A stretch of 64,000 bases of DNA from Roseibacillus ishigakijimensis (GTDB taxonomy: Bacteria; Verrucomicrobiota; Verrucomicrobiia; Verrucomicrobiales; Akkermansiaceae), in the NCBI RefSeq assembly GCF_016595415.1, contig NZ_JAENIO010000011.1:1-64000 (forward strand). Direction: 5' to 3'. The translations under genes were made by a program, and so were the position numbers. The notes beneath the pieces are model-generated. The model did no database searches, was not told the origin of the DNA, and saw only the letters and a list, made by a program, of their open reading frames with translations. Below are positions 2,764-18,081 of this stretch, in pieces (the first letter of the stretch is position 1; each line of letters begins with the position of its first letter).

Positions 2764-4758
2764 TCAAGCCGTCGCCTTTTTGATGGATTTGGGTGAGGCC
2801 ATCGGCTTGCGATTGAGGGTGAGCAGGGCTTCGGCGAGGAGGAAAAGGAGCATGGCGAGGAGAAAGGGTCGCCAGAATTCCTGCAACAGGCTTTGGTTCC
2901 CTTCACTCTTTTGTTCAAAGAGACTGACTGGGGCCTCGGGGAGGAGGGATTCGCCAATCTCTTCGGGGGTCAGTTGCTCAATACGTAATTCGCTTTCGGG
3001 CACATTGAGGGCCAGCAGAGTTCCCTCGCCATCAGTGAGTCGATAGATACCAGCAGAATCAGGATAGGGAGCGCCTTCCAGCGCGGAATTGACCACGGTG
3101 GCATTGTTCGCAGGCGCTTGTCCGGCCGGGCGATTGTTATCGTCCAGCCTGCTGGCTCCCCGTTCGAGCAAGCGCTGGGTCAAGACCAGATGGAGGGCGG
3201 TGCGTTCAAGGTCCGACCAAGTGTAATCAGGAAGGGTCGTTAAAAGGTGGGCGGTTCCTTGGCCGAGAATACGCCGGGCCAGGAGGGGGCTGCCATCGTC
3301 CCAGGTGGCCAAAGGGATAGCCTCGCTGGCTGGGGAAAGAGGTTGGCGTTTGATGGCGCGGAGTTGTCCCAAGGGGAGGGGGGTACCGTCGTCACCATCG
3401 CGAAACGGTCCCTCGTCGCGCCGCCAGTTTTCCCCTGCAATGAAGAATTTGCCTGCTGGGGCAGACTCCACGGGCTCCCAAGCGAAGGTGGCAAAAGTTG
3501 CTTCGGGATCACTCTCATTTGGGAGAAAAAGGACTTGTCCACCACTCTCCAGATAGCTGCGCACGAGGACGGCTGCGGTGTCCGTGGGTAGGGGAGCGGC
3601 CCAGAGTAGAAGAGCGGTTTGCCGCAGGTCCAGAGCGGAAGGATCAGCACTCGGTCCGGAAAGCTCCAACTCCTGAACCTGAAAACTCGCGAGGCCTGGA
3701 GGGCTGACGGCCCGGAGCAAGGTGGCGCGGGCTTCTTCGGGCAGACTGCCATCATGGACCAAGGTGGTGAGGAGAGGCTGTTCTTCGCCATAGGTGAAGT
3801 AGACGTGGTTGTCCCGCAGGTTGGGGTCGGGGGGGAGAGAGACCCTCCCCCAGCCAGTAGCCTCGGCATTGGGCAAGGGGAGCGTGCGCCGGAAACGGAT
3901 GCTTTGCCCTTCCAAAACCAAGGAGTCGGTGGTGGGGGCTCCATTCAGGTTCACGGTGATGGGCAGATTGAGGTTTCCTTCCGATTTGTCGCGGGTCAGC
4001 TCCAGTTCGAGGGTCAGTTCGGTCTCGCTGCGGCGAACGGAGAGGAGGCGGAGGCTGTGATTTTCGCGGGGTGTTTCCGGCAAGGATAATACTCGCAAGG
4101 AAGTGGGGAAAGGCAGATCCCGGAGGGTTTGGGCGAAGGCCGGCCAGCGCGAGTCGTCGGTGCGCCAATTGGCTAGCTGCATGTCGGTGGCCAGCCAGAT
4201 TTCGGTTCGGCCTGGCTGGGCTTCGCGTAAATAATCGAGAGTCGTTGCCAGCAGGCTGGGAATGTCGCTCGCGGTATCGGTGGCCCGGGTGGTGGAGAGC
4301 TCGGGCAGGACTTCCGGCGAGGGCACTTCGGTCATTTCGCCGCTGGCGGAGTCAATCATCACGAGGCGAGCGGTTTCCAGTTCCTCCATGGCATCGGCCA
4401 CTTGTTGCAGCACGAGTTCGCGCTTGCTCGGTTGGCCGTCCGCCTCCTTGCGCTCCATGGACGCCGAGCGATCGAGGATCAAAACGACGGTATCGACACT
4501 GGCCCCGAAGCCGAGAAAGCCGCCTAACAATGGTCGCGCGATGGCAAAGATGAGGGCCGCAATGGCGAGGGCCCGGCAGGTGAGGATGAGGATGTGCTTG
4601 AGCTTCTTCTTCCCCCGCGATTCCCGGGTCGCTTTTAGCAAAAAGTCCATCGCCGCCCACTTCACCGTGCGGTGGCGACGACGGTTGAGGAGGTGGATGA
4701 TGATGGGCAGGGAGACCACAAGCAGTCCCCAGAGGAGGGCGGGTTGGAGGAAGGACAT
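2764..4758 (-). CDS. BatA-like membrane protein with von Willebrand A domain
   Basis: 664 residues. The N terminus is the BatA/aerotolerance-type module: a membrane helix at about 4-22, the basic NRRRHRTVKW segment, and a second helix at about 56-76 with ARPLL. A vWA domain follows with the metal-site motif DRSAS (96-100). The long middle resembles secreted or periplasmic domains, and another membrane helix lies near 630-650 before a basic tail. Such proteins are the downstream partners of MoxR ATPases and DUF58 proteins, and all three occur here in that order on one strand. The vWA domain presumably binds a protein partner in the periplasm or at the membrane. Confidence 0.85.
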   Translation of the reverse strand: MSFLQPALLWGLLVVSLPIIIHLLNRRRHRTVKWAAMDFLLKATRESRGKKKLKHILILTCRALAIAALIFAIARPLLGGFLGFGASVDTVVLILDRSASMERKEADGQPSKRELVLQQVADAMEELETARLVMIDSASGEMTEVPSPEVLPELSTTRATDTASDIPSLLATTLDYLREAQPGRTEIWLATDMQLANWRTDDSRWPAFAQTLRDLPFPTSLRVLSLPETPRENHSLRLLSVRRSETELTLELELTRDKSEGNLNLPITVNLNGAPTTDSLVLEGQSIRFRRTLPLPNAEATGWGRVSLPPDPNLRDNHVYFTYGEEQPLLTTLVHDGSLPEEARATLLRAVSPPGLASFQVQELELSGPSADPSALDLRQTALLLWAAPLPTDTAAVLVRSYLESGGQVLFLPNESDPEATFATFAWEPVESAPAGKFFIAGENWRRDEGPFRDGDDGTPLPLGQLRAIKRQPLSPASEAIPLATWDDGSPLLARRILGQGTAHLLTTLPDYTWSDLERTALHLVLTQRLLERGASRLDDNNRPAGQAPANNATVVNSALEGAPYPDSAGIYRLTDGEGTLLALNVPESELRIEQLTPEEIGESLLPEAPVSLFEQKSEGNQSLLQEFWRPFLLAMLLFLLAEALLTLNRKPMASPKSIKKATA

Positions 4759-4766
4759 CTTTTTGG

Positions 4767-4792
4767 GAAAAACTAAAAACGAAAGACTTAAA
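4767..4792. repeat. Left arm of 26-bp perfect inverted repeat around the four-helix-bundle gene
   Basis: The 26 bases at 4767-4792 (beginning GAAAAACTAAAAACGAAAG) are the exact reverse complement of 5192-5217. The 11-mer AAAAACGAAAG occurs twice here (4775-4785 and 4790-4800), the second copy running just past the arm. It sits 8 bases upstream of the vWA gene start. Confidence 0.95.
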
Positions 4793-4804
4793 AACGAAAG
4801 GGAG

Positions 4805-5185
4805 CTATTCGGGTGGGTGCTGGGCTTCGAGCTTTTTGAGGATGGCGCTCAGGATGCGCATGAGCTCATCGGCTTCCTGCTCGATGGTTCTCATTTCCTC
4901 AACAAGGGAGGTCGGCAAGGTTGTTTGGAGAAGGCGGGCCCAGTGTTTCGATTCTGCCGCTTCCTTGCGGGCAATTTTCATGCGGAAAAGTTTATCTCGG
5001 TGGGAGATGGAACTGTTGGCTTCGATATAGTTTGCTCCCACAGAACCAGATGAGCGAAGAATTTGTTCTGAATCAGCCCAGCAGACTGGAGGAAGGGTGT
5101 TGCGCGCGAGAATGCGACGAACCGAAACTGCGAACTCAAAGGTCCGCCCTTCCAGATCGTAGGGTCCTTTCTTTGATTCCGGCAT
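4805..5185 (-). CDS. Four-helix-bundle protein of the 23S rRNA intervening-sequence (S23/bAvd-like) family
   Basis: 126 residues, all helical, with the family pattern near the middle: ILRSSGSVGANYIEANSSISHRDKLFRMKIARKEAAESKHWARLL. Family members occur as ORFs inside 23S rRNA intervening sequences and as accessory proteins of diversity-generating retroelements, and very often as scattered single genes without known function. Here the ORF fills the space between two perfect 26-bp inverted repeats, 12 bases from one arm and 6 from the other. It interrupts the DUF58-vWA gene pair, which suggests it arrived as a cassette. No reverse transcriptase or rRNA is nearby. Confidence 0.85.
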   Translation of the reverse strand: MPESKKGPYDLEGRTFEFAVSVRRILARNTLPPVCWADSEQILRSSGSVGANYIEANSSISHRDKLFRMKIARKEAAESKHWARLLQTTLPTSLVEEMRTIEQEADELMRILSAILKKLEAQHPPE

Positions 5186-5191
5186 TTAGTG

Positions 5192-5217
5192 TTTAAGTCT
5201 TTCGTTTTTAGTTTTTC
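5192..5217. repeat. Right arm of the 26-bp perfect inverted repeat
   Basis: Exact reverse complement of 4767-4792. It begins 7 bases after the DUF58 stop codon. In a transcript the two arms could pair into a 26-bp stem enclosing the whole four-helix-bundle ORF. Confidence 0.95.
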
Positions 5218-5224
5218 GCAAGCG

Positions 5225-6106
5225 CTACTTCAACCGGTTCGTCAAAAAGTCGGAGAGCACCTCTTCATAGTCCTCATCGGTGACAATCTTGCGGTAATCT
5301 GCCTGCGCATCGTGGACCTTGGCCTCCACGGCAGTGAGGTAGTCGGCAAGCGCGGCCTGGTATTCGTCCGCGATGAGGTTGGGCTCGGCGACGAGGACGG
5401 AGTCGTCTTCCAAGTCGACAAAGCGGTGAGGCCGGTCGAAGGCAAAGTCGATCTCCTGACGGTCTAACAAGTGGAAGATGGCGATATCGTGCTTGCGGTA
5501 GCGGAGGTGCTGCAGGGCGTCGCCCAGTTCCTCGGGATCGCAGAAGAGGTCGGAGAGGATGACCACGAGGGCGCGTTGTTTGATTTTTTCCGCCACCGTG
5601 TGGAGGGCGTCCACGAGGCCGGTTTCGCCTTTGGGCTCGAGTTTGCCGAGGTTGTCAAAGATGTGCTGCAGCTGGGAGGCCGAGCGCGAAGGGGGGATTT
5701 CGAGGTGAATTTTTTCGTTACAGACCGAGAGCCCGGCGGCGTCCCCTTGCTTGACCAAGAGGTAAGCGAGAGAGGCGGCGAGGCGGCGGGCATACTGAAT
5801 CTTGCTGTCGTGTTCTCCGCTGGCAAAATTCATCGAGCCCGAGGAGTCGACCACGAAGTAAGCGCGCAGGTTGGTGTCGGCCTCAAACTCTTTGATGTAA
5901 AAACGGTCCGAGCGCGCGAAGGCTTTCCAGTCGAGACGCCGGGTGTCGTCGCCGGGGACATACTTGCGATACTCGGCGAACTCCACCGAAGAACCGCGAT
6001 GGGGAGAGCGGTGTTTGCCCGCCACGTTCCCGATCATGGCCTGCTTGGTTTCCAAGGGCAGGGCCGAGAGGCGGGCGAGGAGCTTATGATCGATGAAGTC
6101 GTGCAT
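5225..6106 (-). CDS. DUF58 domain protein (MoxR-associated)
   Basis: 293 residues. The DUF58 hallmark PGDDTRRLDWKAFAR is at 51-65, followed by a vWA-like fold with the metal-site motif VVDSSGSM (85-92) and later LVVILSDLF. No signal peptide or membrane segment is visible, so the protein is probably cytoplasmic or membrane-associated through its partners. DUF58 proteins are encoded beside MoxR AAA ATPases and BatA-type proteins and are thought to be client or adaptor proteins in assembling surface or metal-containing complexes. It lies 17 bases after the membrane protein gene and just before the four-helix-bundle cassette. Confidence 0.9.
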   Translation of the reverse strand: MHDFIDHKLLARLSALPLETKQAMIGNVAGKHRSPHRGSSVEFAEYRKYVPGDDTRRLDWKAFARSDRFYIKEFEADTNLRAYFVVDSSGSMNFASGEHDSKIQYARRLAASLAYLLVKQGDAAGLSVCNEKIHLEIPPSRSASQLQHIFDNLGKLEPKGETGLVDALHTVAEKIKQRALVVILSDLFCDPEELGDALQHLRYRKHDIAIFHLLDRQEIDFAFDRPHRFVDLEDDSVLVAEPNLIADEYQAALADYLTAVEAKVHDAQADYRKIVTDEDYEEVLSDFLTNRLK

Positions 6107-6948: not shown

Positions 6949-7010
6949 TAGGTCGCCCCCTTGGGGCTTATTTGTTCAGTTCACCCTGTAGGTCGCCCCC
7001 TTGGGGCTTA
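6949..7010. repeat. Two tandem copies of a 22-bp unit, the second overlapping the MoxR stop codon
   Basis: The sequence TAGGTCGCCCCCTTGGGGCT followed by TA occurs at 6949-6970 and again at 6989-7010, a 40-base period. Similarity continues beyond the unit: the MoxR end (GAACTGGACGATTAA on the coding strand) resembles GAACTGAACAAATAA in the downstream copy. This suggests a duplication spanning the stop codon. Confidence 0.8.
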
Positions 7011-8105
7011 ATCGTCCAGTTCCTCAAGAAGGCGCTTCACGATCTTCTGCGAAGTCATGCCTTGGGATTCGGCGGCGAAGTTGGGGATGACGCGGTGGGT
7101 GAGGACGGGGGTGGCGACCGCGAGGAGGTCTTCGCGCCGGACGAGATAGCTGCCGTGCAGGGCGGCGCGAGCTTTGGCGGCGATGACGAGGTTCTGGATG
7201 GCACGGGGGCCGGATCCCCAGCCGATGAGCTCGCTGATCCAGGCGGGGGCGTCCTCGCTGTTCGGGCGCGTGCGGCGGACGAGGGTGACGGCATCGTCGT
7301 AAATGTGATCGGGCACGGGCACGCGACGCACGAGCTTTTGGTAGGCTTGGATCTGCTCGCCGTTCATGAGCTTGGAGAGCTTTTCGGGGGCTTTGCCAGT
7401 GGTCTCGCGGGCGATGCGGCCTTCCTCCGCCGCGCTGGGGTAGTCCAGCTCGATGAGGAACATGAAGCGGTCCAGCTGGGCTTCGGGAAGGGGATAGGTG
7501 CCCTCCTGCTCGATGGGGTTCTGGGTCGCGAGGACGAAGAAGGGCTTGTCGAGCTGGTAGGTCTTGCCGAGGACGGTGACCTTTTTCTCCTGCATGGCCT
7601 CCAGCATGGCGGACTGGGTCTTGGCGGGGGCGCGGTTGATTTCGTCGGCCAGCACGATGTTGGCAAAGACGGGGCCTTTGATGAACTCGAATTCGCGTTT
7701 TCCGCCCACGCCGCTTTCCTGAATGATGTCCGTGCCGGTGATGTCGGCAGGCATCAGGTCGGGGGTAAATTGGATGCGCGAGAAGCTGAGGTCGAGGGTC
7801 TCGGCCACCGAGGAGACGAGCAAAGTCTTGGCCAGGCCCGGCACGCCCATGAGGAGGGAGTGACCGCCGCCAAAGAGAGAGATGGAGAGCTTCTCGATGA
7901 CGTCTTCCTGGCCGATGATGACCTTGCCGAGCTCAGCCTTGAGCTTGCGGTAGGAGTCGCCCAGCTGATCAATGGCGGCGACATCGTCCTCGGGGAGGTC
8001 GCCCACCGGTTGGGGGCGGGCGGATTCGCTGGCGACGGGAGGCTCGGCAGGAGGGCTCTTGGGGCCTTCGCTTTTCTCAAATTCAGGAGCGGAATGATCG
8101 GACAT
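7008..8105 (-). CDS. MoxR-family AAA+ ATPase
   Basis: 365 residues. An acidic, proline-rich leader of about 45 residues precedes the AAA+ core, which has Walker A GVPGLAKT (87-94), Walker B IVLADEIN (150-156), and the family patterns PVFANI and LATQNPIEQEGTYPLPEAQLDRF. MoxR ATPases are chaperone-like proteins that work with DUF58 and vWA partners to activate or insert metal cofactors or assemble envelope complexes. The gene order here (MoxR, membrane protein, DUF58, vWA) supports that role; the client is unknown. It is first in its operon and divergent from the PEP-CTERM gene at 8256. Confidence 0.93.
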   Translation of the reverse strand: MSDHSAPEFEKSEGPKSPPAEPPVASESARPQPVGDLPEDDVAAIDQLGDSYRKLKAELGKVIIGQEDVIEKLSISLFGGGHSLLMGVPGLAKTLLVSSVAETLDLSFSRIQFTPDLMPADITGTDIIQESGVGGKREFEFIKGPVFANIVLADEINRAPAKTQSAMLEAMQEKKVTVLGKTYQLDKPFFVLATQNPIEQEGTYPLPEAQLDRFMFLIELDYPSAAEEGRIARETTGKAPEKLSKLMNGEQIQAYQKLVRRVPVPDHIYDDAVTLVRRTRPNSEDAPAWISELIGWGSGPRAIQNLVIAAKARAALHGSYLVRREDLLAVATPVLTHRVIPNFAAESQGMTSQKIVKRLLEELDD

Positions 8106-8255
8106 TGGTTCTATCGGGTAGGCTAGGTCCTTCCCCCCGTTTGTCCAGCGTGGGTTGGGGTTGCTCTCATTTAGGCCTCTTCGGGTAAATTTTTTCCGAA
8201 TCTGCTTTCTTCGCGGAGCAGAATTGATATTCTCTTTCTGTATTTGACTGAAATC

Positions 8256-9023
8256 ATGACAGCAAAAATCTTTTCACTTCTCGCCCTTGGCTCCGTAGTT
8301 ACTCATGGCCAAACTGTTCTCTCCAATAATTTCGAGATGGGAACGGAAGGATGGGGCACGGACGATCACTCGGTTTCTCAGAGCGCGGGGGTTTTGGTGG
8401 TTGCCGACAATGGGGGGGTAGGAGCTACCCGGGCTTTTTCGGATTTTGATTCTCCGGTCTCTTTGTTGGTTGGGCAACAGTTGCAATTCTCTGCCGAGGT
8501 CTTTTTCACTTCTTCGGGGGCCGGGGTTGCGCGTGCTCTCACTATCGGCTTGTCCAATGGGGAAGGAGCCACGGCTTACATCAATCGCATCAGCGCGGGA
8601 GCCGACCCTTATGAAGAAGGCCATTACACCCATGCGAGCTTTAATGGTGGAGCCAATAATCTTCTTGCTGGCGGCACTGCTCTGGGCACTGACTCCGGGG
8701 TGTCCAGTATCCGGACCAATACTTCGGCAGGAGATGGCTATTCCCATACTATTACCTTCACCCTCGCGCGGACTGGATTGACAGAGTTGGAGCTGACAAC
8801 TACGGCCGAGATCGGGAACGGTTCCGTGCGCTCTTTCACTCATGCCGATGCTGCCGCCAGTGACTTTACGTTCAGCCGAGTGGACGTGGGGACTTTTGGA
8901 AACTCGGACTACGACTTCAATCTTGATGATGTGACTGTCTCCGTGATGCCCATTCCGGAGCCTTCCACCGCGCTGTTGGCTGCCGTCTGTTTTCCCGCGA
9001 TTTTGCTGCGCCGTCGCAAATAA
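8256..9023 (+). CDS. Secreted PEP-CTERM protein
   Basis: 255 residues from the ATG at 8256 (a TTG at 8244 is in frame but lengthens the signal peptide needlessly). The signal peptide covers about 1-20. A beta-rich body with repeated Gly/Asp/Thr follows, then the sorting tail PIPEPSTALLAAVCFPAILLRRRK: PEP motif, one membrane helix, basic end. PEP-CTERM tails are recognised by exosortases and occur in bacteria making an exopolysaccharide; the protein is probably anchored or released at the surface. It is a close paralogue of the next gene, sharing GWGTDDHS, ADNGGVGATRAFSDFD and TFGNSDYDFNLDDVTV. Confidence 0.88.
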   Translation: MTAKIFSLLALGSVVTHGQTVLSNNFEMGTEGWGTDDHSVSQSAGVLVVADNGGVGATRAFSDFDSPVSLLVGQQLQFSAEVFFTSSGAGVARALTIGLSNGEGATAYINRISAGADPYEEGHYTHASFNGGANNLLAGGTALGTDSGVSSIRTNTSAGDGYSHTITFTLARTGLTELELTTTAEIGNGSVRSFTHADAAASDFTFSRVDVGTFGNSDYDFNLDDVTVSVMPIPEPSTALLAAVCFPAILLRRRK

Positions 9024-9045
9024 ATTCACTAAGCTTCTGCGAGTG

Positions 9046-10002
9046 ATGAAAAAGGGTTTTTTCAATCTCATTCTTCTCTTCCCGGCGATGACCGCTGCGG
9101 AGACGGTGCTCTTCGACGATTTCGAGTCCGATGCTGGCAACTGGGGCACCGATGATCATTCTGTTCTGCAAAGTGATGGTCTTCTGGTCGTTACTGACAA
9201 TGGTGGGGCTGGAGCAACCCGGGCGTTTAGTGATTTCGATACTTCCGTCACTCTCGCGGTGGGAGAGCAAATCAAATTCTCGGCGGAGGTTTTCTTCACT
9301 TCTTCGGGCGCGAGTGTCAGCCGTGCCCTGACCATCGGGCTTTCCGACGGCGAGGGGAGCGCGGCCTATATCGGTCGGCTGAGTGCGGGGGGGATTGCCT
9401 ACGGGGAAGGTCATTATATCGATATGCAGCTTGATGGCACGGCTCCGAATTTGATCTCGGATGCCGTGGTCCTGGAGGTCTTTGAGGATGTTCCCAGTAT
9501 CCGGCTGAATAGCAGTCCCAACGATGGTTATTCCCATACCGTTAGTTTCACCTTGGCGCGCACCGGCGAGGGGGAGCTCCTGTTGACGACCTCCGGGGAG
9601 ATCGGTGACGGCAGCTTTCGCACGTTTTCCTATCTCGATAATATCGCGGAAGATTTTACCTTTAGCCGGGTGGATATCGCTACTTTCGGGAACTCCAATT
9701 ATGATTTCAACCTGGATGAAGTCACTGTGGAGTATGGGCCCATCCCTCTGGAGGCGACGATGGTGAGCAGCTTGCAATATGAGTCTGCCACCCAAAGGGT
9801 CACCCTGCGCTTTGCCGATACGGGGGAGACCACTTACACCGTAGAGAGCAGTGCGGACCTGGATTTTTCCTCGGGAGTCACAGACTATCCGCTGGATGGT
9901 TCAGAGGATGTGGAGAGTTATCCGGGTGAAATTGAGTTTCGCTTCACGGATGAATCCGCCTCTGGAGACAAGCACTTTTGGCGGGTGAGGTCCGATAGCT
10001 AG
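9046..10002 (+). CDS. Secreted paralogue of the preceding protein, without a PEP-CTERM tail
   Basis: 318 residues from the ATG at 9046 (a GTG is directly before it). Signal peptide about 1-20. The body matches the preceding protein along most of its length (GNWGTDDHS, FFTSSGASVSRALTIGLS, TFGNSNYDFNLDEVTV). Where the first protein has its PEP-CTERM tail, this one continues for about 85 residues with a beta-rich module containing YTVESSADLDF and HFWRVRSDS, common at the ends of large secreted proteins of this phylum. Only 22 bases separate the genes, so they are probably co-transcribed tandem duplicates. Confidence 0.8.
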   Translation: MKKGFFNLILLFPAMTAAETVLFDDFESDAGNWGTDDHSVLQSDGLLVVTDNGGAGATRAFSDFDTSVTLAVGEQIKFSAEVFFTSSGASVSRALTIGLSDGEGSAAYIGRLSAGGIAYGEGHYIDMQLDGTAPNLISDAVVLEVFEDVPSIRLNSSPNDGYSHTVSFTLARTGEGELLLTTSGEIGDGSFRTFSYLDNIAEDFTFSRVDIATFGNSNYDFNLDEVTVEYGPIPLEATMVSSLQYESATQRVTLRFADTGETTYTVESSADLDFSSGVTDYPLDGSEDVESYPGEIEFRFTDESASGDKHFWRVRSDS

Positions 10003-15531: not shown

Positions 15532-18081
15532 TCAAGAATCTCCCGCACAAGACTCCAGGCTGGTGAGCATGGCTTCCAGGCGGGTGGCGTAGTCTTTGCC
15601 GGTGGTGTTGGCCTGCAGGCGGTCGGCCCAGAGGGGGAAGGCGAAGGGGGTGAGGCGTTCGGTCTCCTGCAAGTGGAGAGGCAGGTCTTGCAGGGTGAGG
15701 AGGACCGCTTGCAGGCGGGTGAATTCAAGCTGCTTTTCCAGAATTTCGCGCTGCGCTTGTGCCAAGAGCAAGTTGCCGGGGTCGTAGTTGCGAAAGACGT
15801 CGTAGAGCAGGGAGGCCGAGGTCTGCAGCTCGCGCCCAGTCTTGCGTTTGCCGGGGTATTGCGCGACCACCAGTCCGGCCACGCGGGCGATATCGCGGAA
15901 CTGGCGGCGGGCGAGTTCGGTGGCGTTGAGGCAGGAGAGGAGGTCCTCGATGAGGTTGGTGATGGTGAAGAGGGGCCGCCAATCGGCAGCGGTGAAGGGG
16001 AGGGGACTGCCGCTGGCGAGGGCGCAGCCGTAGTCATTCTGGGTCGCTTCCACGGTCGCTCCCGTATCCCGGGTGATGCGCCAGGCGAGGAGGGCGCCGA
16101 GGCCTTCGTTGGCGGAGCGCCCGGCGAAGGTGTAGAGAAAGAGATGATGGGTGCGCTCTTTGGGGAGATAAGTGTGCTCAATGAGAAGACTGGTGTCGTC
16201 GGGAAGGCGGGACCATTGTCCCTGAATCTTCAGGAGGGGAGCCAGCGAGCGGGTCTCGGGCGTTTCCGCCGGGTCGCGATGGAGCCGATGGGCGATGGCG
16301 TGGGTGAGCTCGGTGGAGAGCGACATCTTGGCCCCGGTCCAGGTGGTGATCTGGCCTTGGTGCTTCTTGCGCGCCGCGCGCACGGTGGCGGTGTGGGCGT
16401 GGAGACGCACGAATTCCAGGCGACGTCCGGCGAAGACGAGCTGTTGCCCGGGTTTGAGCTTGGAGATGAAGCCTTCTTCCACGGTGCCGAGGAGCTTGCC
16501 ATTGCCCATCTTGACGAGGACGTTTTGGTCGCTGGTGATGGTGCCGATGGAGAGGCGGTGGAGCTGAATCTTGCGCCGGTCGGTGACGGTGAGGCGGCCG
16601 TCGGGCAGGGCTTCCGCCTTCCGATAGCCGGGATAGGCTTTGAGGGCTTCGCCTCCATGGGTGATGAAGCCGAGGGCCCAGTTCCATTCTTCATCTGTTA
16701 GATTCTGATAGGCATAACTGCTCATCACCTCCCGGCGGAGATCTTCGGGCTGGGCGGGCTCGCTGATGAGGAGGGTGACGAGGTGCTGCACGAGGAGATC
16801 GAGGGGTTTGGGGAGCGGGGGACGAGATTCGCAATGGAGGTGCGGGCCGGGAGGGCTCGCCGGACCCTCCGAATCGATGGGGGATGGAGGCCTCGGCGAG
16901 GCGTCCCGACCGAGGTCCTGGATGGCATCGCGGGCGGCGGCGAATTCCAGCAACTCGAGCGCGTTGGTGGGCACGCAAAGGAGCTTGGAAGTCTGGCCCG
17001 GGGCATGGCCGGAACGTCCCGCGCGCTGGCGGAGACGGGCGATGCCCTTGGGCGAACCGACCTGCACCACCAGGTCGACGGGGGAGAAGTCCACCCCGAG
17101 GTCGAGGCTGGAGGTGCAGACGACACACTTGAGGCGGCCGGTGCGCAGGCCGTCTTCCACGTCCTCGCGGTCCTCCCGATCCAGCGAGCCGTGGTGCATG
17201 GCGAGGGTGTCTTCCCACTCCGGGCGGATTTTGCGTAATTCCTGGAACCAGATCTCGGTCTGGGAGCGGGTGTTGGTGAAGAGTAGGGTGGAATTGTGTT
17301 TGTCGACCTCGGTGGCCACCTGGCGCACGAGGCGGGTGCCGAGGTGGCCGGCCCAGGGAAAGCGGTCGATGTCCCGGGGGAGCAGGGTGGTGATGACGAG
17401 GGGTTTTTGTTCGTTGGAATGGATGAGGGTGGGGGAAGAGTCGTTTTCGCGGATGCCTCGGCGAGGCCTCCCTACCGGGGCGAGGACTTGGGCGGCTTCC
17501 TCGAGATTGCCGAGGGTGGCGGAGAGGCCCCAGGTGCGGAGAGTGGGGCTGAAGGCCCGCAAGCGGGCGAGGCAGAGCTCGGTCTGGGAGCCGCGTTTGC
17601 TGCCCAGCAGCTCGTGCCACTCGTCGCAGATGACGGCCTGAAGGTTTTCGAAATAGCTACGGGAGTCTTCATAGCTCAGGAGAAGGGAGAGGGACTCGGG
17701 GGTGGTGACGAGGGCGAAGGGGGGCTTTTCGCGGATCTTTTTTTTGCGGTAGCCGGAGGTGTCGCCGGTGCGGGCCTCCACGTTCAGATGGGGGGCGAGT
17801 TCGGCCACGGGTTCGCGCAGGGAGGCGAGGGTATCGGCGGCGAGGGCGCGCAGGGGGGTGAGCCAGAGCACGCGCAGTTGGCCGGGAGGGGTGGGGCTTT
17901 CCAGCTCGGCAGAGAGGGGGCCGAGGAAGGCGGCGAGGGTTTTCCCCAGTCCGGTGGGCGCGTGCACGAGGCCGCTTTCGCCCCGGGCAAAGGCTTCCCA
18001 AGTCTCTTCCTGGTAGCGGAAGGGAGTCCATTGCCGGGTGGCGAAGAAGGGCTGGAGCAGGGGGGACAAGCGGGCCTTCAA
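15532..18081 (-). CDS. Lhr-like DEXH-box helicase (ligase-associated DNA damage response type)
   Basis: 849 residues. Motif I APTGLGKT (41-48), DEWH box (154-157), SAT (188-190), and the superfamily 2 motif VI RQRAGRSGH (352-360), followed by a long C-terminal region. Length and layout fit the ligase-associated DEXH helicases that are usually encoded next to an ATP-dependent DNA ligase, an exonuclease and a phosphoesterase; none of these is adjacent here. Two proline/arginine-rich insertions (about 206-216 and 392-420) coincide with GC-rich palindromic repeats in the DNA and look like in-frame repeat insertions. Confidence 0.88.
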   Translation of the reverse strand: MKARLSPLLQPFFATRQWTPFRYQEETWEAFARGESGLVHAPTGLGKTLAAFLGPLSAELESPTPPGQLRVLWLTPLRALAADTLASLREPVAELAPHLNVEARTGDTSGYRKKKIREKPPFALVTTPESLSLLLSYEDSRSYFENLQAVICDEWHELLGSKRGSQTELCLARLRAFSPTLRTWGLSATLGNLEEAAQVLAPVGRPRRGIRENDSSPTLIHSNEQKPLVITTLLPRDIDRFPWAGHLGTRLVRQVATEVDKHNSTLLFTNTRSQTEIWFQELRKIRPEWEDTLAMHHGSLDREDREDVEDGLRTGRLKCVVCTSSLDLGVDFSPVDLVVQVGSPKGIARLRQRAGRSGHAPGQTSKLLCVPTNALELLEFAAARDAIQDLGRDASPRPPSPIDSEGPASPPGPHLHCESRPPLPKPLDLLVQHLVTLLISEPAQPEDLRREVMSSYAYQNLTDEEWNWALGFITHGGEALKAYPGYRKAEALPDGRLTVTDRRKIQLHRLSIGTITSDQNVLVKMGNGKLLGTVEEGFISKLKPGQQLVFAGRRLEFVRLHAHTATVRAARKKHQGQITTWTGAKMSLSTELTHAIAHRLHRDPAETPETRSLAPLLKIQGQWSRLPDDTSLLIEHTYLPKERTHHLFLYTFAGRSANEGLGALLAWRITRDTGATVEATQNDYGCALASGSPLPFTAADWRPLFTITNLIEDLLSCLNATELARRQFRDIARVAGLVVAQYPGKRKTGRELQTSASLLYDVFRNYDPGNLLLAQAQREILEKQLEFTRLQAVLLTLQDLPLHLQETERLTPFAFPLWADRLQANTTGKDYATRLEAMLTSLESCAGDS
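16890..16902. repeat. Palindromic repeat inside the helicase gene (copy 2)
   Basis: GCCTCGGCGAGGC, flanked by GGATGGAG and GTCCCGACC. The same 13-mer occurs at 17455-17467. It lies in the codons for the low-complexity segment SPRPPSPIDSEGPASPPGP, which interrupts the helicase between motif VI and the C-terminal region. Confidence 0.8.
17455..17467. repeat. Palindromic repeat inside the helicase gene (copy 1)
   Basis: GCCTCGGCGAGGC, with GGAT before and CTCCCTACCGGGG after. It encodes part of VGRPRRGIREND, a basic insertion shortly after the SAT motif region. The reading frame is preserved. Confidence 0.8.

Follow-up and report, generated by a model that had tools for sequence, protein, structure and literature searches.

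In the 64,000-nt stretch of Roseibacillus ishigakijimensis DNA analysed here (the window), a gene for a four-helix-bundle protein of the S23/IVP type, enclosed by inverted repeats, lies between the DUF58 and vWA genes of an operon with a MoxR-type ATPase gene. The features are listed below, with the arms named in the sense of the operon.

2764..4758, minus strand: BatA/vWA protein, the host gene downstream (PF07584, E 1.8e-21; TIGR02226)
4767..4792, plus strand: downstream arm, an inverted copy of the upstream arm (26/26 identical; extended imperfect arm 4763-4799)
4774..4800, plus strand: heptad array inside the downstream arm, TAAAAACGAAAG twice, 15 nt apart (7+8); repeat family D2
4805..5185, minus strand: S23/IVP four-helix-bundle ORF, 126 aa (PF05635, TIGR02436)
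5192..5217, minus strand: upstream arm, with the heptads GAAAAAC TAAAAAC GAAAGAC TTAAA (extended imperfect arm 5185-5221)
5225..6106, minus strand: DUF58 protein, the host gene upstream (PF01882, E 3.1e-48)
7008..8105, minus strand: MoxR-type AAA ATPase of the host operon (PF07726, E 9.3e-64)

An S23 gene between arms of seven-nucleotide repeats

By sequence and repeat search, the full arms (4763-4799 and 5185-5221) are 37 nt long with a complementarity of 92%, and in their core (4767-4792 and 5192-5217) 26 of 26 bases match without a break; the outer ends of the perfect arms span 451 nt. A sequence-only reading of this DNA had described an S23/IVS-type ORF at 4805-5185 between arms identical at 26 of 26 positions, which the sequence and both protein profiles confirm. 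It had also noticed an 11-mer repeated at one arm. This proves to be part of a chain of degenerate 7-nt near-repeats (heptads), interrupted by one 8-nt step, that makes up the arms: TAAAAACGAAAG occurs at 4774-4785 and 4789-4800 in the left arm and, inverted, at 5199-5210 in the right. The repeats are tandem and intergenic, as in the STRRs, the name given to the heptanucleotide repeats of Calothrix; heptads also occur in cyanobacterial tRNA-Leu introns. When the upstream flank was compared with the reverse complement of the downstream flank, the cassette obtained an arm score of 28.5. Among the 45 other window ORFs of at least 150 aa, one scored 10.5 or more, the 95th percentile of swapped flanks in the 78-gene set described below, and none 15 or more. 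The predicted RNA fold (486 nt) pairs both arms and has a minimum free energy of -146.3, compared with -126.3 (sd 6.3) in 100 shuffles (z -3.19); as judged from sequence and predicted fold, the terminal inverted repeats are able to form a stem.

An ordinary terminator pair, which the sequence-only reading had named as an outcome that would speak against it, is rejected, since a scan of 4500-5500 found no G+C-rich hairpin with a T run at the arms; the two terminator-like sites in this interval lie elsewhere, and shuffles give 1.1. No sigma-70-like promoter was found between 4500 and 5500 with a scan model that may not suit this phylum, and an Rfam search of 4300-5700 at E 1 returned no known RNA family. 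The cassette adjoins the DUF58 and vWA genes and not 23S rRNA, the location of intervening sequences (IVSs). Elsewhere in the window, the ORFs 8244-9023 and 9043-10002 look, from their translations read by eye, like tandem duplicates.

The S23 ORF matches PF05635 with E 2.1e-11 (44.4 bits, cut-off 33.8) and TIGR02436 with E 1.3e-17 (64 bits, cut-off 24), and the predicted model of its product is a bundle of four helices with a mean pLDDT of 92.2. In a structure library made up of the PDB, the best fold matches were the S23 proteins 2RLD (E 1.5e-5) and 2GSC (E 9e-4), followed more weakly by the DGR/Avd entries 8UB7 and 4DWL (E about 0.02, TM 0.7-0.8). Compared with its ortholog in genome G001, the window gene has a dN of 0.264 and a dS of 1.215, the latter near saturation; a second pair of S23 orthologs has a dN of 0.069 and a dS of 0.864, and in a third dS is saturated. 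Judged by these substitution rates, the S23 protein is under purifying selection. No function is known for S23 proteins according to the accessible part of PMC4990558.

Inverted heptad arms around S23 genes across genomes

S23 matches in the window's genome comprise five good ones and a weak one in a longer frame; by eye, the arms of the five good copies are built alike, with a different sequence in each copy. Such a longer frame, of about 200-300 aa and with S23 similarity over the first part of the profile only, was seen at locus L010 on contig C149 and in weak tail matches. This 18.7-kb contig, and not the window's contig C22, also carries the only reverse transcriptase match (RVT_1, E 1e-10) of the genome. 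Among the matches listed, S23 genes were found at E 1e-4 in 45 of 58 genomes, the window's own and those of relatives. We took the flanks of 78 of at least about 150 matches, mostly the best-scoring, leaving out one further match. The inverted flank score had a median of 14.25, compared with 7.0 for swapped pairs; 59 of the 78 genes reached the 95th percentile of the swaps and 37 the 99th, with 19 below the 95th, and in direct orientation three reached the 99th. The window's own S23 subfamily has inverted arms scoring at least 10.5 in 25 of 30 cases. Neighbouring ORFs used as controls reached the threshold twice in 25, and both are S23 genes by their coordinates. The median arm length was 31.5 nt (62 of the 78 loci had scored arms).

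The seven-nucleotide period is equally apparent. Self-match at lag 7 was 0.374 and 0.369 in the 90-nt flanks of the 78 genes and 0.252 within genes, with further peaks at lags 14 and 21, and lag 7 was the best of lags 4 to 13 for 50 of 78 S23 genes compared with 6 of 70 control genes, the controls including two S23 genes taken in by mistake. Distinct places with inverted pairs in short loci numbered 79 at period 7, compared with 1, 3, 16, 1 and 1 at periods 5, 6, 8, 9 and 10. An S23 motif was held by 72 of 88 inverted period-7 pairs in the short loci, a count that takes overlapping places more than once and comes from loci mostly chosen for S23; eleven of the 16 pairs lacking the crude motif enclose an S23 match by position. 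A scan of 1.45 Mb of longer stretches, which included N runs, the window itself and 100 kb of its genome picked for heptads, gave three pairs: the window's own, one around a tRNA gene (L293) and one, L249, with no heptad by eye.

The same anatomy was met in named genomes. These loci came from a pattern-based scan of which the best 80 were kept, so that the set is biased to the query; four of the 80 were already in the 78-gene set. Among these best 80 are loci from Verrucomicrobia, Proteobacteria, Thermodesulfobacteriota and other sulfate reducers, Bacteroidetes, Melioribacter, Caldithrix, Planctomycetes, Caldiserica, Elusimicrobia, Omnitrophota, Acidobacteria and Clostridia, among others. Measured against swaps of their own flanks, 61 of the 78 usable loci have inverted arms at the 95th percentile or higher. 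For direct arms, eight of the 78 reached the 99th percentile, and ten loci had arms in neither orientation. Lag 7 was best in 65 of the 80, one of which (L155) is mostly N upstream, and a period of 8 instead of 7 was seen at some loci (e.g. L152, L187, L192 and L200). S23 matches were also present in 20 plasmid records, cyanobacterial or from Riemerella. Of the 12 plasmid loci read, all cyanobacterial, nine had inverted arms scoring at least 10.5 and 11 had lag 7 as the best. Their sites include nrdB/nrdA, where the S23 gene opposes the direction of its neighbours, a gene for a TraM-recognition-domain protein and, twice, cas6/cas4. The latter two (L351 and L352) are on plasmids of Pseudanabaena and Anabaena, and the Pseudanabaena locus L351 has long heptad arrays that are direct rather than inverted. 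The arm anatomy and its generality across S23 genes are well supported.

Host sites, arm turnover and heptads without S23 genes

An S23 gene stands behind DUF58 at three of the 30 DUF58 loci read, those of the window's genome (G000), G001 and G031. Two genomes of the same genus are without the cassette: in G002, whose DUF58 protein is 88% identical, the vWA start follows directly on the DUF58 stop, and in G003 a short spacer separates the two genes. Neither site has heptads, and no target duplication is evident by eye beside them, both being too diverged for exact comparison. Other DUF58 sites, also read by eye, have a short gene-less heptad hairpin (G043), a heptad array (G028), a different insert (G025) and a stretch that is hard to interpret (G034). 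A class-wide search for the window's S23 subfamily (matches in 52 of 384 genomes at E 1e-12) added a cassette at the same DUF58 site in G336. The four cassettes at this site (G000, G001, G031 and G336) have four different arm sequences, each pair matching internally: 42 of 43 positions match in G001, G336 has a 55-nt aligned stretch with a score of 47.5, and G031 scores 13. In a tree of 44 S23 proteins, these four group with two copies from other sites in a single clade (95/82), and the site label has to change twice on that tree; related copies have thus lived at different sites.

These results agree with the claim of the sequence-only reading that the cassette splits DUF58 and vWA genes that are normally adjacent. 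That reading would have been refuted had all close relatives kept the insert, with diverged arms and no other copies; G002 and G003 are without it, and further S23 gene copies exist. Its proposal of a small mobile unit is supported indirectly, in that the cassette comes and goes, being missing from same-genus sites and having related copies elsewhere. It had proposed a search for other copies with the same arms; in the window's own genome, an exact match to the arm occurs in the two cassette arms and nowhere else, and near matches numbered 21, about as many as the 16 for the reversed pattern. These near matches pointed to heptads away from S23 genes.

In 26 pairs of same-site orthologs with both neighbours homologous, the arms of both elements matched better within the element than across orthologs 22 times, with a mean arm match of 22.9 within elements and 10.9 between orthologs. 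On these alignments, pairing outlives arm sequence. Kept pairing would be expected if the stem matters, and gene conversion between the arms would look alike. Since the arm sequence is free to change, the perfect 26-bp identity emphasised at the outset is not the special feature of the cassette, which lies in the grammar of 7-nt repeats and in the maintained pairing. Arm similarity is about equal within a genome (0.093) and across genomes with distant proteins (0.092), and a genome-specific pool of arms was not seen. The arms of S23 proteins more than 55% identical at different sites have a similarity of 0.299 (54 pairs, vs 0.092 in 1456 pairs), the pairs being non-independent and the rough site test one that may call some same-site pairs different; this tends to favour arms that move along with the lineage of their element. 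Both neighbours were co-directional in 99 of the 139 loci at which both were scored, and the S23 gene points with them in 92 of the 99 (46/49 in the 78-gene set and 46/50 in the named set; p 5e-20), the neighbour strands being taken from long open frames and not from annotation, and up to four loci standing in both sets. This orientation suits an element living by the host transcript; selection for expression can give the same bias.

Heptads are also found away from S23 genes. G005 has no S23 match among the matches listed, yet it has 12 heptad arrays in 200 kb, and a strict dependence of heptads on S23 genes is thereby rejected. The G005 arrays (L292-L300, e.g. L300:18956-19290) are of the ATCGTAA/ATCGTCC type, mixed with other hairpins; at L293:16840-17486, inverted heptad arms about 590 nt apart surround a tRNA-Pro gene (17122-17196) and no S23 gene. 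At the G005 threshold, samples of other genomes gave no array in 164 kb of the window's genome (an unbiased sample), none in G018 and one in G040; for G016 and G056, whose array counts are inflated by N runs (5/7 and 4/4 rows), printed sequences were used instead. Arrays of the AACT pattern are mostly single, so gene-less hairpins as the common form are not borne out for these pattern loci. AACTGAT arrays are present in the relatives G014 and G022. The number of S23 copies correlates with hits to the AACT pattern, one heptad class, over 58 genomes (rho 0.41, partial 0.33 given size, kinship ignored); the reversed AACT-type pattern is no clean control, because it too has period 7 and has many hits in several genomes. 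The 30-nt arm of G001 recurs in G000 on contig C44 with 0 mismatches and on C170 with three, and in G001 itself four times on C1 and C13 with 2-3 mismatches. These four contigs have no S23 match, and no inverted partner of the arm was found on them. In G001, L364 and L365 have a stretch of about 100 nt that contains a heptad repeat and looks, by eye, near-identical at both positions, 2.4 kb from each other; a repeat with no S23 gene may have been duplicated there recently. Because arrays occur without S23 genes, we regard heptads as a wider repeat class of which S23 cassettes are the most orderly form.

Interpretation and comparison with known systems

We interpret the cassette as an IVS-like element that lives in operon mRNA, with its arms pairing in the transcript, and give this interpretation somewhat better than an even chance. 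An RNA mechanism is the likeliest reading because the IVS parallel, the orientation and the kept pairing converge on it. In Coxiella burnetii, the 23S rRNA IVS has an S23 ORF and a 28-bp terminal stem, is cleaved by RNase III, measures 428-444 nt, and has three tandem heptamers and a degenerate one before the start codon, varying among strains (PMC4990558, accessible part). The likeness to rRNA IVSs drawn in the sequence-only reading thus extends further than claimed, since heptamers are reported before the Coxiella S23 ORF and the window's arms are heptad arrays. By this parallel, the cassette would be transcribed with the host operon, the arms would pair into a stem with the S23 gene in the loop, and RNase III would cut the stem as it does in 23S rRNA; the cassette would then leave the polycistronic message with the host genes unharmed. 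The S23 protein might, as an oligomer, bind the heptad arms and help keep or spread the element; a relative forms a homopentamer, and the fold is shared with Avd, a reverse transcriptase partner. In the opinion of the authors of PMC4990558 (accessible part), Coxiella does not make its S23 protein in vivo, a point that does not favour a role for the protein.

A bolder form, which we think unlikely, joins S23/IVP proteins with heptad repeats in a single widespread genetic system: a ring-shaped oligomer would read RNA or DNA in steps of 7 nt and would write, copy and invert heptad arrays with the help of a polymerase, from the host or acting in trans. The median arm, near five heptads, would fit a pentamer. 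If it were true, cyanobacterial heptamers, TAACTGA repeats and rRNA IVSs would be products of one machine, and insertion into rRNA a special case.

The heptad hairpins and arrays may instead be ordinary repeats, made by slippage and inverted duplication, into which S23 genes settle with a protein unrelated to the arms. S23-free arrays are indeed common, as in G005 and at most pattern loci, a gene-less hairpin occupies the DUF58 site of G043, the G001 arm is dispersed as a repeat in two genomes of the genus, and a published guess, which the accessible part of PMC4692102 quotes, has heptamers arise by slippage. We nevertheless find this doubtful: same-genus sites lacking the cassette have no heptads to settle into, arms are about as alike within a genome as across genomes, closely related S23 proteins at different sites have more similar arms, and S23 copy number tracks one heptad class, with the caveat on kinship given above.

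Mobilisation at the DNA level, by a transposon machinery acting in trans on heptad arms that serve as inverted ends, with the gene as passenger or accessory, would account for the ends themselves, for the sites without an element and for the related copies at two other sites in the supported clade of the window's subfamily, and Y1 transposase matches exist in 49 of the 58 genomes. It is an improbable account, given ends that vary in sequence, no target duplication seen and a cassette oriented with the operon in 92 of 99 cases; moreover, four Y1 loci read by eye, of many matches, have no heptads, and at E 1e-6 a Y1 match is missing from four of the 45 genomes with S23 genes. Most improbable, in our view, is a resident operon gene with arms that switch the translation or stability of the genes downstream. 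The homologous copies that different genera have at one site, the purifying selection on the gene and arms placed, by eye, right before the next gene's start codon at a number of loci would all accord with a switch, as would the translational control that MacGregor suggested for TAACTGA repeats (PMC4679880, accessible part); against it, the gene is missing in close relatives that have the DUF58 and vWA genes adjacent, and its host operons are many and unrelated.

Among the papers listed by literature searches, most subscription journals lying outside them, we saw none on S23 genes outside rRNA tied to heptad arms. Tandem heptamers have no agreed maker. If they and the S23 proteins belong together, a large family of unassigned genes gains context, rRNA IVSs would be a small part of a broader class, and a hidden segment, possibly cut from the message, would sit in many operons.

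Among known elements, a DNA insertion sequence differs from the cassette, which has only the S23 ORF inside, no transposase gene, and arms that differ among same-site copies. REPINs, of the REPIN/RAYT system, are short hairpin repeats moved in trans. REPs have a fixed sequence, unlike the cassette arms, which vary from copy to copy. The S23 protein is predicted to have the fold of Avd of diversity-generating retroelements, matched more weakly than S23 structures, and PF05635 is described as resembling Avd (PMC10053308, accessible part). Unlike such a retroelement, the cassette has no reverse transcriptase match on its contig. RVT_1 matches at E 1e-10 are present, by hand count, in 21 of 45 S23-bearing genomes and in 2 of 13 without S23; the enzyme as a required partner is rejected, since 24 of the 45 have no match at that threshold.

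Known heptanucleotide repeats share with the cassette the intergenic 7-nt arrays and, in Xanthomonas, the inverted pairs. The accessible part of PMC4692102 describes GGGAATC/GGGGATT heptamers, partly in inverted pairs, from Xanthomonas and Nostoc, and cites three Calothrix heptanucleotides; that of PMC4679880 describes TAACTGA arrays in Beggiatoaceae, Cyanobacteria and Bacteroidetes, with no evident transfer mechanism. A term search of the accessible text of both gave no mention of S23 or of a four-helix protein.

In the accessible account of the Coxiella IVS (PMC4990558), RNase III cleavage is demonstrated; unlike that IVS, the window cassette lies between protein genes of an operon, and its kind occupies many sites with many arm sequences. 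Like it, the cassette combines an S23 ORF, a stem (28 bp there, 26 bp and perfect here) and heptamers, and it is of similar size, its perfect arms reaching over 451 nt from one outer end to the other, compared with 428-444 nt.
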